64,000 bases of DNA from Desulfomarina profundi (GTDB taxonomy: Bacteria; Desulfobacterota; Desulfobulbia; Desulfobulbales; Desulfocapsaceae), in assembly GCF_019703855.1 (NCBI RefSeq), contig NZ_AP024086.1:1632501-1696500 (forward strand), given 5' to 3'. The notes under the pieces were generated by a model that had not been told where the DNA came from, did no database searches, and saw nothing but the letters and a program-made list of their open reading frames with translations. Each line of letters opens with the position of its first letter. Within the stretch, counting starts at the first letter, position 1. Made by a program: the position numbers and the translations under genes. Positions 6,061-53,145 of this stretch are shown here, in pieces.

Positions 6061-6090
6061 ATCAAAGCTCTCCCTTAATCTGAAAATCTC

Positions 6091-6160
6091 ACCACGGAAG
6101 GTGTTTCTGCCGCAGTCGGATTTTCATTAGTTTTCTGTCGCTGTGTCCAGGTTGCCGGAC
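6091..6160 (+). repeat. Dispersed repeat family B, copy 1
   Basis: Carries the family core TGCCGCAGTCGGATTTTCAT followed by TAGTTTTCTGT, here between the aminotransferase start and the TPR-protein stop. Other copies are at 19848, 22385 (reverse), 26036 (reverse) and inside proB at about 40403. The element ends at the TPR stop codon. Confidence 0.6.
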
Positions 6161-8981: not shown

Positions 8982-9125
8982 TAGTGTCTGTCCAGAAATG
9001 AGATTTTTTGTTCAAGTTCAAGGAGCATAGGAATATAAAAAGCGCAGCATATTAGGCATATGTGAGCATTTTTATTTTTCGTAGCGACGCAGAAATCGGG
9101 CAAAAAGGCCATCTTCAGATTGACA
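8982..9125 (+). repeat. Dispersed repeat family A (MITE-like), copy 1
   Basis: About 144 bp beginning TAGTGTCTGTCCAGAAATG. Its body (AAAAGCGCAGCATATT, GCATATGTGAGCATTTTT, CGCAGAAATCGG) matches the 177-bp element at 51471-51647 closely. The ends are only imperfectly inverted. It fills the gap between ndk and the hypothetical gene at 9147. Confidence 0.7.
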
Positions 9126-19809: not shown

Positions 19810-19847
19810 CTGAATATTTTACAATATTGCAGTTTAATCGAAAATCG

Positions 19848-19930
19848 CCACCGGCGAAGGTTGCTTTGCCGCAGTCAGATTTTCATTTGGTTTTTATTAC
19901 CGAGCCATTGGGCCCGGCCATGCCGGTTTA
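19848..19930 (+). repeat. Dispersed repeat family B, copy 2
   Basis: CCACCGGCGAAGG, then TTTGCCGCAGTCAGATTTTC and ATTGGGCCCGGCCATGCCGG. It has the core of the copy at 6091 and the hairpin-bearing right half of the copy inside proB. It runs up to the corrected stop codon of csp and is flanked by the csp terminator. Confidence 0.65.
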
Positions 19931-20142
19931 TCCTAGTTTAGTTACATTTTCCGCCTGTAATCCCTTGTCAGTCTGGGCAATTGTGAATTCAACCTCTTCC
20001 CCTTCTTCAAGACTTTTGAATCCTTCCCCTGGATGGCACTGAAGTGAACAAACACATCAGCCTCTCCGTCAGGTCTTTCAAGAAAACCATACCCTTTGCT
20101 GGCATTAAACCATTTCACTTTTCCTTTCACACGCTCTGACAT
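19928..20142 (-). CDS. Cold-shock domain protein (frame break)
   Basis: CspA-family RNA/DNA-binding protein. The first half is perfect: [20 protein letters not shown] with RNP1, then [11 protein letters not shown] with RNP2. After that the frame as written becomes lysine-rich nonsense. Adding one G to the G4 run at 20026-20029 gives [20 protein letters not shown], then [14 protein letters not shown], a normal cold-shock ending, with stop at 19928 and 71 aa in total. GGGGAGG lies 8 nt before the ATG. A second csp is at 58665. Family B repeat and a terminator lie immediately downstream. Confidence 0.85.
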
Positions 20143-22285: not shown

Positions 22286-22308
22286 GATCCTGTTTCAAAT
22301 AAATTGAC

Positions 22309-22334
22309 ATTGCCGAACCTTAAGGCTCGGCAAT
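22309..22334. repeat. 26-bp palindrome
   Basis: ATTGCCGA and TCGGCAAT flank CCTTAAGG, with a single A/C mismatch pair on each side. It lies 24 bp before the yejA-like start and could be an operator or a terminal fold of the neighbouring repeat. Confidence 0.5.
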
Positions 22335-22384
22335 TTATGCCCTTTGGGTGTTTATGCCCTCCGGGTATTTATGCCCTCCGGGTA
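22334..22384 (+). repeat. 17-bp tandem repeat, three copies
   Basis: Units TTTATGCCCTTTGGGTG, TTTATGCCCTCCGGGTA and TTTATGCCCTCCGGGTA lie head to tail. Each unit folds into a small CCC/GGG hairpin. A related single unit is at about 13394-13420. Confidence 0.75.
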
Positions 22385-22432
22385 CAACAAAGTAATGAAA
22401 ATCCGACTGCGGCAGGATTACCTGCTGAGGGA
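22385..22432 (-). repeat. Dispersed repeat family B, copy 3 (partial)
   Basis: The reverse complement reads CTGCCGCAGTCGGATTTTCAT, one base longer than the shared core TGCCGCAGTCGGATTTTCAT of the copy at 6091. Its right half is replaced by the 17-bp tandem repeat. Confidence 0.6.
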
Positions 22433-22631
22433 GAATTTTCAGACAAAGGTTTCTTCGGTGATCTTCCAGTGCAAAAGGTATTTTGTGTGGAGAAAAACCT
22501 GAAACCATGACTGTTTCATATGAAAATTACGGCAAGGTTACCATTTTTCGTGTATCTTTCGCAATCCAGATTACAGCTCACTTCATTTTTTTTAAGATGA
22601 GACCGGGGCTGTATTCTGAGTTTTTATTTTC

Positions 22632-22878
22632 AACCTGAATCTTTCAATGAGCAAGGTTACCGGAGATGAGCGGCAACAATAACACCGACATATCTTCACC
22701 CTTCAAACCATTGACAACGAAGCAGATTCGGTAAAATTGCCAATCCAGCCGACAACAGAAAATGAAAAATTTACTCCACCCTGTTGGTGGATGAACTTAC
22801 TTTCTGATTTCATGCATAATCTCTTGATATGAAATCAAAAGTTTTATTTTTCTTTTTCCGGAGTGCAGGATTGAGGTT
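22632..22878 (+). repeat. 245-bp repeat family C, copy upstream of leuC
   Basis: Starts AACCTGAATCTTTCA and ends TGCAGGATTGAGGTT, imperfect inverted ends, 247 bp apart. The interior GACAACGAAGCAGATTCGG, followed by TAAAATTGCCAATCC, matches the copy at 52901-53145. Two hairpins lie inside, TCCACC/GGTGGA at 22775-22791 and TGATTTCAT/ATGAAATCA at 22805-22837. It ends 27 bp before the leuC start, so it forms part of the leuC leader or promoter. Confidence 0.7.
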
Positions 22879-25931: not shown

Positions 25932-26035
25932 AACACAGTATTATAACTCAATAAAATTCATCTTAAGGGTACTCCATACAGCGAAACACAAAACCAGCAG
26001 AAATCGCAATATACCATTGCGGGCGAAAACCAGAC

Positions 26036-26112
26036 GAACCAGCATGACTTGACCCAATGAATCAACAGCAAAAAAATCCGATTGCGGTAAAACGGTCTTC
26101 GGTCGCGGAATT
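26036..26112 (-). repeat. Dispersed repeat family B, copy 4 (diverged)
   Basis: The reverse complement contains TTTTACCGCAATCGGATTTT and ATTGGGTCAAGTCATGCTGG, matching both halves of the copy at 19848 with substitutions. It is intergenic, between dnaJ-like and ssb. Confidence 0.45.
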
Positions 26113-26156
26113 CTCTAACAAACAATAAAACAGTTGAATGGCACGTCAATACTCCA

Positions 26157-37498: not shown

Positions 37499-38149
37499 TC
37501 ACCCACCGTGCTGATACAACCGTTTATCCCGGATGTATTCAACCACTTTTAACGGGACATACTTTTTCAGTTCCCTGTCGTTCTCGCTGATCTTTCTGAT
37601 GAAAGTTGACGAAACTCCAACGGGGATTGTGTCAAGAAACAGAATGTCCTCCCCCCCCCAGTCACTGCTCCAGTGACTCTTTTTCTTTCTGTCATATCCT
37701 ATATTCAAGGCAAGATCAACCATCTTGCAACTATCTACATCTTTTCTGTGGCCGACAATAAGAGATACCTGACTGAGGACCTGTCTGAATGATTTCCAGG
37801 TTAGAATATCAAGAAAGGCATCACTGCCGATAATAAAAAAAAGTGTACAGTCCTCTCCCAGACGTTTTTTCAAAGTTCTGAGTGTGTCTATTGTATAGGA
37901 AGGAGCCGGTAATTGTCCCTCGATACAATCGTACCGGAACATGGGATAATTTTCACAGGCGATCTCCATCATCCTGCAACGGTGGAAAAAGGAGACCAGC
38001 TCGGATTCTGTTTTATGGGGAGGAGCCTTTGATGGGATAAAAATAACCGTATCCAGGGAATATTCCTGAATGGCAGTTTCAGCCAACTCGAGATGGCCAA
38101 AATGTACAGGGTTGAAGGTACCACCCAATACTCCAGCACGCATTTTCAC
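37499..38149 (-). CDS. nadD: Nicotinate-nucleotide adenylyltransferase
   Basis: Makes deamido-NAD from nicotinate mononucleotide and ATP. The 216-aa protein starts MKMRAGVLGGTFNPVHFGHL, containing the GGTFNPxHxGH nucleotidyltransferase signature. IIGSDAFLDILTWKSF and GVSSTFIRK near the end also match. It overlaps the stop of proA by 4 bp (ATGA), so it is coupled to the proline pair at the end of the rplU operon. Length is normal. Confidence 0.95.
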   Translation of the reverse strand: MKMRAGVLGGTFNPVHFGHLELAETAIQEYSLDTVIFIPSKAPPHKTESELVSFFHRCRMMEIACENYPMFRYDCIEGQLPAPSYTIDTLRTLKKRLGEDCTLFFIIGSDAFLDILTWKSFRQVLSQVSLIVGHRKDVDSCKMVDLALNIGYDRKKKSHWSSDWGGEDILFLDTIPVGVSSTFIRKISENDRELKKYVPLKVVEYIRDKRLYQHGG

Positions 38150-39402
38150 ACCCTGACCTGCCCCTGTCCATATACCACAAATTTCTTAGTGGTTAATTCA
38201 TCCAGTCCCATCGGTCCATAGGCATGAAGTTTTGTTGTACTGATACCGATTTCCGCACCAAGTCCTAATTGACCTCCGTCATTAAATCGGGTGGAGCTGT
38301 TGACCATTACAGCCGATGCATCAATCTCATTAATAAATCTCTGGGCAGTTGTATAATTTTCCGTAATAATTGACTCGGTATGCTGGGAGCCATACTTTCT
38401 GATATACTCTTTTGCTTCATCGAATCCTTCAACTATTTTGACGCAGAGAGTCAGATCAAGGAATTCTCTGCCCCAATCATCGGGACCTGCAGGAACAATA
38501 TCTGAAGAAAGGGCGACACTGCTCGGACAACCAAGCATTTTCACTCCTTTTTCACCCAGGGAATCGGCAATCAGGGGAATGAATTTTTCCGCAATTGATT
38601 TGTGAATAAGCAATCCCTCCAAGGCATTACATACTCCAGGTCGGTGGGTTTTTGAATTCAAAATAACAGGTATCGCTTTTTCAAGATCTCCATCTTTATC
38701 CACATAGATATGGCAAACACCTTTATAGTGTTTTAAAACAGGAATGGATGAATTGTTGCAGACAAACCGGATAAGCCCTTCTCCGCCCCTGGGAATGACA
38801 AGGTCTATCTGTTCCTCAAGAGTCAGAAGATGATTGACGGCTTCACGGTCAGTCACCGGAATGACCTGAATACAGTCCCTGTCAACACCCTGATCATCCA
38901 GGGCTTTCTGTAATACTGTTGCCAGGGCAAGATTTGAATGTATCGCCTCTGAACCGCCACGGAGGATTACACTGTTCCCGGCTTTCAGGCAGAGAGCAGC
39001 CGCATCGATGGTCACGTTCGGTCTCGATTCATATATCATGGCGATAACACCAAGGGGAACAGACATTCTCCCGACCAGGAGCCCATTTGGTCTCTTGACA
39101 AGTCCATCAAATTTTCCAACAGGATCAGGCAGGCTGCAAATTTCCGCAAGCCCGCTGACCATGGATTCAATAATGGAATCTGACAGGGTCAGTCTGTCCA
39201 GCATCGCCGGAGAAAGCCCCTTTTCCTCTCCAGCCGCAATATCCTTTCTATTTTCGCCCTGAATATATTTTTTTTCTTCAATAAGTAATTGTGCAATTTT
39301 CTGCAAAACCTGGTTTTTTTTCCCGGTTGACAGAGACATCAAGGAATAGGAACCTTTTCTTGCCTTTTCAGCTATATCAATTACGGTGTTTTTCAGTGTC
39401 AT
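38146..39402 (-). CDS. proA: Glutamate-5-semialdehyde dehydrogenase
   Basis: Second step of proline synthesis; reduces glutamyl-5-phosphate. The 418-aa product has the characteristic VPLGVIAMIYESRPNVTIDA segment, GNSVILRGGSEAIHSN, VIPRGGEGLIRFV, and the active-site cysteine in THRPGVCNALEGLLIH. LGLGAEIGISTTKLHAYGPM closes the protein. Complete, with normal length. It lies about 90 bp after proB and overlaps nadD. Confidence 0.96.
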   Translation of the reverse strand: MTLKNTVIDIAEKARKGSYSLMSLSTGKKNQVLQKIAQLLIEEKKYIQGENRKDIAAGEEKGLSPAMLDRLTLSDSIIESMVSGLAEICSLPDPVGKFDGLVKRPNGLLVGRMSVPLGVIAMIYESRPNVTIDAAALCLKAGNSVILRGGSEAIHSNLALATVLQKALDDQGVDRDCIQVIPVTDREAVNHLLTLEEQIDLVIPRGGEGLIRFVCNNSSIPVLKHYKGVCHIYVDKDGDLEKAIPVILNSKTHRPGVCNALEGLLIHKSIAEKFIPLIADSLGEKGVKMLGCPSSVALSSDIVPAGPDDWGREFLDLTLCVKIVEGFDEAKEYIRKYGSQHTESIITENYTTAQRFINEIDASAVMVNSSTRFNDGGQLGLGAEIGISTTKLHAYGPMGLDELTTKKFVVYGQGQVRV

Positions 39403-39490: not shown

Positions 39491-40738
39491 CTACAACACT
39501 ACAAGATTATCTCGATGCATAATTTCATCAACATCCTTGTATCCAAGAACCTGTTCAATTTTATCTGTCCGCAACCCTTTGATTCTAAAAAGATCGCCGG
39601 AAGCGTAATTGACTAGTCCAACCGCTATTTTTGTTCCATCTTCATCGACACAAACTACGGAATCCCCAATCTCAAACTCACCAACAAGTCCGATCACCCC
39701 TGAGGGAAGCAGGCTTTTTCCATTTTCAGAGACTGCAGCACAGGCACCTTTATCGAGAACCAGGGTTCCCTTGGGCTTGAGAACATAGGCAATCCACCTC
39801 TTGCGACTCTGCATTTTTTCCTGTTGAGGCAAGAAAAATGTCCCAACCATTTCTCCGGAAAACAGATGTTGCAGAATGTCTCTTTTTTTACCGGGGCCAA
39901 TAAATGAGCTCCCGCCGCCGGCGGCAACCATTTTTACAGCATTTATCTTACTCTGCATGCCGCCTGTTCCCAGTGCGCTTTTGCTGTTGCCAGCCATTGC
40001 TTCAATTTCCGGTGTAATCTCGGAAACGGTGTAGACAGGTTTTGCGGTAGAATCCTGCTGGGGGTCAGCATCATAGAGTGCATCGACATCTGTCAGACAG
40101 ATAAACATATCAGCTTCAATGAGATTGGCCACAAGTGCCCCGAGATTATCATTGTCACTGAATTTTAATTCCTCGGTTGAAACAGTGTCATTTTCATTTA
40201 CGACTGGAATAACGCCGAGTTTAAAGAGGGTAAGGATTGTATTTCTTACATTCAAATATCTGGATCGACTCGAAAGATCGGAATGGGTCAATAGAATCTG
40301 GGCAATTTTTTTATCGTGGTTGTCAAAAGCCTCATCGTATAGATGCATAAGACAGGATTGACCGATTGCTGCCAGAGCCTGTTTTTCTTTTATTGAAAGA
40401 TTTTTATCGGAAAATCTCGTTGTAGTGGGTTGTTTGACCCCAGTCGCTTTTTCATCAGTTTTCTGTGACCGGACTGCTTGGTCCGACCATGCAGGTTTAT
40501 CTGAAAAGTCGAGCTTTTTTCTTCCCGCGGCCACGGCACCGGAAGTGACAAGAATAACCTCTCGTCCACTGTTATGGAGAAAAGATATCTCCCTTGCCAG
40601 ATTCTGTATAACGTCGTAATCCATTCCGTCTTCTGCTGTAAGAATAGCACTGCCGACCTTTACAACTACACGCCTGGCCTTGTCAAAAAGAGTTTGCCTG
40701 AAATATAATCCTTCTTCTCTGTCAATTTGGTTTTTCAT
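39491..40738 (-). CDS. proB: Glutamate 5-kinase with PUA domain and repeat-derived insert
   Basis: First enzyme of proline synthesis, 415 aa. The amino-acid kinase domain has VVKVGSAILT, VTSGAVAAG, PVVNENDTVS, the LTDVDALYDADP motif and GTGGMQSKINAVKMV; a PUA domain fills the last 80 residues (DKGACAAVSENGKSLLPSGV). Between GRKKLDFSD and LSIKEKQALAA it has about 31 extra residues (82-112) that other ProB proteins lack. That DNA is a copy of repeat family B, flanked by an imperfect direct repeat (TTTATCGGAAAA and TTTATCTGAAAA). The reading frame is kept open, so the kinase may still work. It lies between obg and proA. Confidence 0.93.
   Translation of the reverse strand: MKNQIDREEGLYFRQTLFDKARRVVVKVGSAILTAEDGMDYDVIQNLAREISFLHNSGREVILVTSGAVAAGRKKLDFSDKPAWSDQAVRSQKTDEKATGVKQPTTTRFSDKNLSIKEKQALAAIGQSCLMHLYDEAFDNHDKKIAQILLTHSDLSSRSRYLNVRNTILTLFKLGVIPVVNENDTVSTEELKFSDNDNLGALVANLIEADMFICLTDVDALYDADPQQDSTAKPVYTVSEITPEIEAMAGNSKSALGTGGMQSKINAVKMVAAGGGSSFIGPGKKRDILQHLFSGEMVGTFFLPQQEKMQSRKRWIAYVLKPKGTLVLDKGACAAVSENGKSLLPSGVIGLVGEFEIGDSVVCVDEDGTKIAVGLVNYASGDLFRIKGLRTDKIEQVLGYKDVDEIMHRDNLVVL
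40403..40495 (+). repeat. Dispersed repeat family B, in-frame copy inside proB
   Basis: CAGTCGCTTTTTCATCAGTT, then TTCTGTGACCGGACTGCTTGG and CCGACCATGCAGGTTTATC match the other family B copies (6091, 19848). The hairpin CGGAC/GTCCG is preserved. In the proB frame it encodes residues 82-112 without a stop. Confidence 0.6.
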
Positions 40739-51470: not shown

Positions 51471-51647
51471 ACGGGTCTGTTTACAACTGAAGGGTACCCT
51501 GAAAAATTAGAATTTTCGTTCGAGATCAAGGAATAGAAAAATTTAAAAGCGCAGCATATTGAGCATATGTGAGCATTTTTCATTTTTCTGTAACGCAGAG
51601 ACCGGACGAAAAAGCCATTTTTCAAGGTGGCCTGAAAACAGACCCGT
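51471..51647 (+). repeat. Dispersed repeat family A (MITE-like), complete copy
   Basis: A 177-bp non-coding element with perfect 12-bp inverted ends: ACGGGTCTGTTT at 51471-51482 and AAACAGACCCGT at 51636-51647. The interior (AAAAGCGCAGCATATT, GCATATGTGAGCATTTTT) is shared with the copy at 8982. It lies between lptE and dusB. Confidence 0.75.
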
Positions 51648-52900: not shown

Positions 52901-53145
52901 CCTAAATCCTGCAATTGGCAAGTTTTTCGGAGATGCGAGGCATCAAGGGCGCAGACGTATTAACATACTTCAAGCACTTGATAACGAAGTAGATTCGATA
53001 AAATTGCCAATCCCCCAGGGCAAGGGAATAAAGAAAAAACAATCTCACTCTAATAGTGAGTAGTACAGCCCCTACTGTAATATTAAAACTATCTTTTTAT
53101 ACATTATAAATATTTTTTCTTTGTTCCCGAAGTGCAGGATTTAGG
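52901..53145. repeat. 245-bp repeat family C with perfect inverted ends
   Basis: CCTAAATCCTGCA at 52901-52913 and TGCAGGATTTAGG at 53133-53145 form perfect 13-bp inverted ends. Interior blocks GATAACGAAGTAGATTCG and TAAAATTGCCAATCC match the copy at 22632-22878, which has the same length. A CTCACT/AGTGAG hairpin is inside. It occupies most of the gap between dusB and the M48 peptidase gene, ending 8 bp from the peptidase stop. Confidence 0.75.

Follow-up and report, generated by a model that had tools for sequence, protein, structure and literature searches.

Glutamate 5-kinase (ProB) of Desulfomarina profundi is encoded by a gene containing a segment that resembles repeats found between genes, which raises the questions of where this segment came from and whether it becomes part of the protein. 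An earlier note on the surrounding DNA, a stretch of 64,000 nucleotides that was analyzed as a whole and is referred to below as the window, had described about 31 extra ProB residues encoded without a stop codon. Both points are borne out in the sequence: the insert measures exactly 93 bp, or 31 codons, and contains zero stop codons. The features of this region are as follows.

39491..40738, minus strand: proB, glutamate 5-kinase of 415 amino acids, the insert carrier (ORF; TIGR01027; AA_kinase and PUA domains)
40403..40495, minus strand: probable element inserted in proB, 93 bp or 31 codons, missing in relatives (alignments and leave-one-out profile)
40403..40414, minus strand: 3' end of the insert, TTTTCCGATAAA (consensus TTTTCAGATAAA), coding for the second FSDK (agreement of 0.79 to 0.99 per position in 135 copies)
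40496..40507, minus strand: proposed insertion site in proB, TTTTCAGATAAA, coding for the first FSDK and resembling the element's own 3' end (graded TTnCnGATAAA at 90 non-tandem left ends)
38146..39402, minus strand: ORF downstream of proB on the same strand, presumably proA-like, a name taken from its sequence (ORF list)

Together with the upstream 12-mer, the repeat-bounded stretch spans 40403-40507 and reads, on the minus strand, TTTTCAGATAAA followed by 81 bases and TTTTCCGATAAA, coding for FSDK...FSDK. The protein matches TIGR01027 with 415.8 bits (cut-off 186), and this match is split into two stretches. When ProB was sought in 58 genomes, including the source genome, matches were found in 54 of the 57 others; these stop no later than query residue 83 and restart no earlier than residue 108, and residues 84-107 are covered by none. 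In an alignment, two ProBs from the same genus (L010 and L011) are exactly 31 residues shorter at the insert and five further relatives have 30 residues fewer, in agreement with the expectation that the extra residues would be missing in related proteins. More relatives, compared by eye, lack the insert as well. A same-genus draft (G006) contributes only ProB residues 1-48, with the insert site outside. On the 3' side, ProB is 79% identical to the two same-genus proteins, and the ProB search found no second ProB in the source genome. Residues 76-115 have protein-level matches at two other places of that genome. On the glutamate 5-kinase chain 2j5t_A, the alignment places the insert between residues 67 and 69; an AlphaFold2 model of ProB made without relatives has a mean pLDDT of 33.8. 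A comparison of proB with phage records gave no match.

Judging by these comparisons and by the repeat family described below, it is very probable that the 31 residues represent a translated copy of a non-autonomous mobile repeat of ~93 bp that entered the gene. We regard translation and tolerance of the insert, in the absence of a selected function, as most likely.

The repeat family is widespread in the source genome (one contig of 4,307,339 bases). A BLAST search of this genome with the insert gave a best non-self match with an E value of 5.6e-10. After 12 copies were aligned, a sequence-only model built from them found at least 149 matches with E values of 1 or less (among the best 150 of 3146 candidates scored), and a profile search of 116 pieces (558 kb) yielded at least 155 copies, 81 on the plus strand and 74 on the minus strand; 102 copies are near full length. 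The majority of these 155 are not in recognised genes. For the proB copy itself, we used a leave-one-out profile made from the 11 other copies, which recovered it at 40403-40506 with 56.2 bits and an E value of 1.6e-14; among 200 codon-shuffled versions of proB, the same profile scored 8.6 bits at most. In the window, this profile had only five hits, with E values from 1.3e-23 to 1.6e-14, namely proB and four intergenic copies, all in gaps between long ORFs. The latter correspond to the repeats near 6091, 19848, 22385, and 26036 that the earlier note had matched to the insert; since these four are also among the 11 training copies, the proB hit alone is an independent test. The intergenic copies are as follows; for the two on the plus strand, the hits of this profile span 22298-22447 and 26031-26121.

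6075..6146, minus strand: partial copy comprising the 3' two thirds
19834..19936, minus strand: full-length copy
22295..22447, plus strand: copy in which the nested motif TTTATGCCCTyyGGGTA forms an internal array
26030..26122, plus strand: copy with a small internal deletion

No matches at gathering score were found in Rfam with sequences from seven sources. The window also contains other dispersed repeats, separate from this element (22634-22746 and 52901-53013; 9038-9079 and 51545-51586; 8986-9021 and four more), which are 67 to 90% identical to their reference copies. Elsewhere in the genome, one copy (L092, 4145836-4146158) is split by ~200 bases, perhaps another mobile element, in which there is an inverted repeat of ~19 bases (GAACATTGTGTCAATTTTG). 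Near position 2205073 (L108), a repeat copy lies beside a gene that we take from its sequence to be pdxH-like and that shows an apparent frameshift near its 3' end, either real or a sequencing error.

The two ends of the repeat differ in their conservation. At the right end, the 12-mer TTTTCAGATAAA is conserved in 135 copies to the extent given above, and conservation drops abruptly beyond it. At the left end, the 12-mers of 90 non-tandem copies show a graded likeness to the right one, TTnCnGATAAA, with agreement of 0.53, 0.74, 0.69, 0.73, 0.89, and 0.90 along GATAAA, 0.47 to 0.51 at positions 2, 3, and 5 (T, T, and C), and values near background at positions 1, 4, and 6. Because the right end is conserved and the left end is graded, the left 12-mer can be read as the chosen site and the right 12-mer as part of the element. 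This disposes of the suggestion that the FSDK pair marks a target duplication: in proB, the element's conserved 3' end supplies the downstream 12-mer and a look-alike site the upstream one, and duplication of a random target is rejected. We infer that the left 12-mer was present in proB before insertion; in relatives, the region of the insertion site has diverged. Among 16 coding left ends, the 12-mer is perfect in proB and at 3105198, matches 6 to 9 of the 12 bases in 13 cases, and matches 4 of 12 in one. The copy at 1959888 adds exactly 31 residues compared to a relative in G020, which retains the left flank VTV. At the site in the YyaL-like gene, the sequence is CTTTATAAACC here, CTCTATAACC in L327, CTCTATGATAAA in L328, CTCTATAATG in L329, and CTTTACAATG in L330. 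Tandem left ends make up 15 of 105, and head-to-tail copies (L002, 298404, and 3638662-3639275) have the 12-mer in common and repeat every 93 bp.

The repeat unit of ~93 bp is suggested to form two hairpins, the first around CCRGC-ATG-GCYGG and the second around GAAAATCC...GGATTTTC. In 155 distinct sequences, 78.6% of the cells of the consensus structure are paired, compared to 31 to 55% after sliding by 1 to 3 columns, with the structure itself being derived from the consensus. The whole consensus fold shows no excess of both-sided changes (88 versus 82 to 109 in slid controls), whereas the first hairpin alone is 82.9% paired and has 41 such changes versus 13 to 18 in slid controls; this covariation comes chiefly from a single pair that is G-C in 38 copies and A-T in 33. 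RNAalifold found no common structure in 70 copies from the source genome and five pairs in 103 copies from other genomes, and seven single-copy folds had z values from -0.52 to -4.44. Overall, there is moderate evidence for the predicted hairpins. Many copies contain, between both hairpins, the nested palindromic motif of ~17 bases mentioned above, TTTATGCCCTyyGGGTA, which occurs singly or in tandem (e.g., at 22330-22385 in the window and in L063). In all four coding copies with this motif, the extra length is exactly 18 bases.

The expectation of further copies in coding sequence was also confirmed. Among all stop-to-stop frames of 150 codons or more, those containing a whole copy account for 24 copies in 16 ORFs in sense frame 1, together with copy-frame pairs in sense frame 2 (12) and in antisense (25). 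Pfam domains are recognised in 15 of the 16 sense-frame-1 ORFs, with 1442318 having no Pfam match. The carriers are the following.

DUF72 protein
AAA protein (408431)
AMIN protein (1134312)
thymidylate kinase (tmk)
RlmN (rlmN)
ProB
receiver/HATPase kinase
aspartyl-protease/PDZ protein with two copies
ketoacyl synthase
proton-antiporter subunit
cadherin-like protein
two-receiver protein
HisKA/receiver/Hpt kinase
DUF255 (YyaL-like) protein
AraC regulator

A profile of 13 coding peptides added a 17th in-gene copy, partial and weak (E value of 0.0017), at 2653425 in a pseudopilin-like ORF that scores above the cut-off of N_methyl and below that of the GspH model. An array is found in the YyaL-like (DUF255) gene (L175:459-3473), where ~6.6 very similar head-to-tail units (3638662-3639275) form a repeat region of ~200 residues. 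An antisense copy (3637014) also lies toward the 5' end of this ORF. NCBIfam ANT(4')-I models match the array without any single stretch passing by itself, and these matches look like repeat artefacts. Relatives were searched for proB and four more of the 16 carrier ORFs. The Hyf-like carrier (3105198) has a partial copy of 54 bases and is ~7 residues longer than its relatives; for the KAS-like carrier (2543445), the matches in 12 relatives were all weak or partial. Four sense-frame-1 cases lie near the N terminus (298404, 1137977, 1594033, and 1959036), with uncertain starts or upstream parts.

Copies in other frames are contained in 24 ORFs, five of which are shadow frames of the sense-frame-1 carriers. 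Among the 19 that were scanned, 12 have no recognised family. In four of the remaining seven (ABC, PfkB, ThiF, and a binding protein), a possible start follows the copy; in the EamA protein (3343155), an antisense copy forms the C-terminal tail; and in a TPR protein and, again, the DUF255 (YyaL-like) gene, the copy is at the N terminus, where the start is uncertain. In the TPR protein (L159:1917-3299), a partial antisense copy (3470475-3470521) is located just before a hydrophobic stretch and may be translated as an exception to the sense rule. Thus, with this possible exception, all copies that have recognised gene sequence on both sides are in sense frame 1, which is hydrophilic, free of stops, and reads FSDKPAW...FSDK.

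The reading frame is preserved through the copies as well. Net indels are divisible by 3 in 19 of 19 near-full-length coding copies (-15 in two, 0 in 14, and +18 in three), compared to 37 of 83 other copies. The 19 copies represent 13 independent loci (six come from one array and two from another), and the chance of 13 out of 13 at the rate of the others is 2.7e-5, a figure to be read with the choice of the coding group by long open frames, which in itself favors multiples of three; what it conveys is that the frame continues intact across the copy, which translation requires. The fourth coding copy with the nested motif (1442318), which is not near full length, also has +18, while 28 other copies at +11 to +21 are scattered, with +17 being the most common.

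Stop codons alone do not explain the strand bias, since the 83 other copies are open in antisense (27, 26, and 8 in frames 2, 1, and 0) as often as in sense frame 1 (21; 18 and 9 in sense frames 2 and 0). Their mean GRAVY values are +0.14 to +0.45 in antisense and -0.40 to -0.86 in sense, and in the frame used by the coding copies the mean is -1.08 for coding copies versus -0.71 for the others. This pattern fits selection against hydrophobic inserts. Sense frame 2, open in 18 of 83 copies and equally hydrophilic (-0.86), is nevertheless used by no internal in-gene copy, and hydropathy fails to account for its absence from internal positions.

These data bear on several other explanations of the proB insert. 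One of them holds that it stays untranslated, with the direct repeats serving RNA excision or bypassing, in which the ribosome hops from GATAAA to GATAAA, and that the protein has the normal length. Bypassing elements occur in yeast mitochondria, and the possible hairpins flanked by a 12-base direct repeat would suit such a scheme. However, skipping needs neither the absence of stops and the lengths in multiples of three in all 19 near-full-length gene copies nor the common +18 of the four nested-motif copies, and the left repeat matches only 6 to 9 of 12 bases at 13 of the 16 coding sites, all of which makes this scheme highly improbable. A check for intron, bypass, or intein features found the frame kept in coding copies and no Pfam or NCBIfam match of the insert. 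Growth of the ProB loop by local duplication, with a chance likeness to the repeat, could produce FSDK at both ends of the insert, but it is refuted by the leave-one-out match, far beyond the shuffled maximum, and the matches of residues 76-115 at two other genome places also speak against it; its probability is practically nil.

The apparent frameshift of the pdxH-like gene would be in line with carriers being decaying genes, whose in-frame state is a transient accident. We consider this very unlikely, given the identity of ProB to its same-genus relatives, its score of 415.8 bits against a cut-off of 186, the lack of a second ProB in the search, and the fact that 13 of 13 independent loci are in frame. 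It also appears unlikely that the repeat is a selected part of its carriers, such as a regulatory or interaction linker, rather than a tolerated parasite: although gene copies are more hydrophilic than the others and ~6.6 very similar units are kept in the YyaL-like gene, the carriers are functionally unrelated, readable relatives lack the insert, and most copies lie outside recognised genes. Insertion of a mobile repeat, followed by its translation and tolerance, is thus the explanation that we prefer for proB.

Related repeats are found in other genomes of the order. Six same-genus drafts gave no match of the repeat; 6 of 37 other genomes match with E values of 0.01 or less, with 60 weak matches in G039. 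Order-wide, 20 of 241 other genomes match with E values of 1e-4 or less under strict filters, with 16 candidates scored per genome. A pattern scan of named genomes returned at least 120 stretches; the 80 listed come mostly from Desulfobulbaceae, Desulfobulbus, Desulfocapsaceae, or Deltaproteobacteria, and the rest of the listed titles include Desulfacinum, Desulfoarculaceae, one Novosphingobium, and one “Gammaproteobacteria” bin. One locus (L206, from Desulfobulbaceae bacterium bin10054) has the same sequence as a stretch of G203:C260. Searches with the coding peptides found in-gene copies in an HI0933-like protein (between two stretches of the family match), an ABC transporter ATPase (two units), and a CbiE/CbiT protein (two units near the C terminus), all three in G154, as well as in a YdbH-like protein (G209) and, N-terminally, in CreA (G199). 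All of these are in the DKPAW frame; as they were selected by coding peptides, they are uninformative on frame bias. Loci fetched by DNA pattern or model (138 loci with 219 copies) contain 35 copy-frame pairs in long frames, 24 of them antisense, and the DKPAW frame is seen only in L206, L215, and L322. This suggests that in-gene copies are rarer, and a minority, in other genomes of the order.

As for the mobilising enzyme, the source genome has two Y1 transposase genes (L187 and L188, at 2538754 and 1075574), both short and IS200-like by size. They find no support as partners of the repeat: their end hairpins, of the GTGGGTGG and CTGGTGGG types, are unlike those of the repeat, the 3.3-kb Y1 loci contain no clear repeat copy (best score of 6.1 bits), neither gene is flanked by copies, and a tblastn search of 120 element-bearing loci with the Y1 proteins gave no match. 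In the mechanism that we propose, a non-autonomous hairpin-forming element would be placed just 3' of a GATAAA-type site, with no random-target duplication, by a trans-acting enzyme, perhaps a transposase of the HUH/Y1-like class that recognises single-strand hairpins; this choice of enzyme class is a guess that we regard as rather doubtful. As the element ends in a target-like sequence, each insertion would create a new target, and head-to-tail arrays with the 93-bp (31-codon) period could arise from repeated insertion or from recombination between units. Gene insertions would survive only where the added peptide is soluble and flexible and falls in a loop, in a linker, or at a terminus. The tolerance side of this mechanism, i.e., the hydrophilic stop-free frame in genes, is better supported than the enzyme side. 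In a broader picture, which we offer with slightly less than even confidence, a superfamily of repeats across the order, including Desulfobulbaceae, would target sites that look like its own 3' end and insert 3' of them. In some lineages, this one included, it would have become coding-competent (an open hydrophilic frame with a 31-codon period), entering genes, regenerating its target (FSDK), and building in-frame tandem regions, as in the YyaL-like gene. It would thus be an independent counterpart of the Rickettsiales elements, with different insertion chemistry.

The palindromic elements of Rickettsia (RPEs), with which the earlier note had compared the insert, and those of Wolbachia are dispersed sequences of ~100 to 150 bp that carry an open frame and are predicted to form stem-loops; they have entered many unrelated genes in frame (PMC2229807, PMC10969869, PMC3767692). 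As an analogy, this comparison stands: here, too, insertion is in frame in unrelated genes (16 ORFs, all in sense frame 1). As an assignment it does not, since the repeat has two internal hairpins instead of terminal inverted repeats (when one end of the consensus is compared to the reverse complement of the opposite end, 4 of 20 bases agree). In addition, one sequence serves as the 3' terminus and as the target-like motif, the copies form head-to-tail arrays with a 31-codon period, and the host belongs to another bacterial order. A comparison of 13 insert peptides with Pfam and with NCBIfam, which includes RPE models, gave no match at E values of 1 or less. In the table of PMC2229807, the target duplication of RPEs is marked “?”.

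GTAG/CGTC-tagged REPs with RAYT transposases are palindromic and occur within ORFs in a number of bacteria, with domain linkers and termini among their locations (PMC3733652). In contrast to these, the unit described here is 93 bp long rather than 20 to 40 bp, GTAG, CGTC, and CTAC are missing from the terminal 12 bases on both sides of 88 two-ended copies (GACG is found once), and no Y1 gene is flanked by copies, based on two Y1_Tnp genes examined at Pfam's threshold. The enterobacterial RU-1/2/3 repeats (ERIC and YPAL) and the 107-bp Correia elements are likewise small and mobile, and their open frames are fused in frame to genes (PMC2759123, PMC2229807). According to the table in PMC2229807, terminal inverted repeats and target duplications are present in most repeats of the RU/Correia type, and the RU study reports none inside conserved domains (PMC2759123). 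By contrast, ProB and the HI0933-like protein of G154 have been hit between two stretches of a single family match.

The absence of terminal inverted repeats and of target duplication also sets the repeat apart from MITEs of the TIR type. The features tested place it outside the RPEs, the tagged REPs, and the TIR-type MITEs. IS200/IS605 elements have hairpins, no inverted terminal repeats, and a target that resembles the right-end sequence. An element derived from this group would share with the repeat the likeness of its right 12-mer (135 copies) to the left site (90 non-tandem copies). In IS200/IS605, however, the target likeness spans 4 to 5 bases, compared to ~11 bases here, no matching transposase was found, and the ends are not shared with the two Y1 loci of the source genome.

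In the literature, mainly the openly accessible part of it, we found no report of such repeats in Desulfobulbaceae or their relatives. In-frame spread of small repeats is best known from Rickettsiales and is scattered elsewhere, in intragenic REPs, RU, and Correia elements (PMC3733652, PMC2759123, PMC2229807). Here, a single family is found in ~17 genes of a 4.3-Mb genome, single-copy biosynthetic ones included, with related in-gene copies in other genera. The entry of repeat DNA into proteins and its possible seeding of new repeat domains thereby become testable across lineages, and the match between end and target provides a concrete hypothesis for the insertion reaction. The repeat can be placed with the small mobile repeats that are translated inside genes, sharing this phenomenon with RPEs but having neither their inverted repeats nor the tags of REPs.
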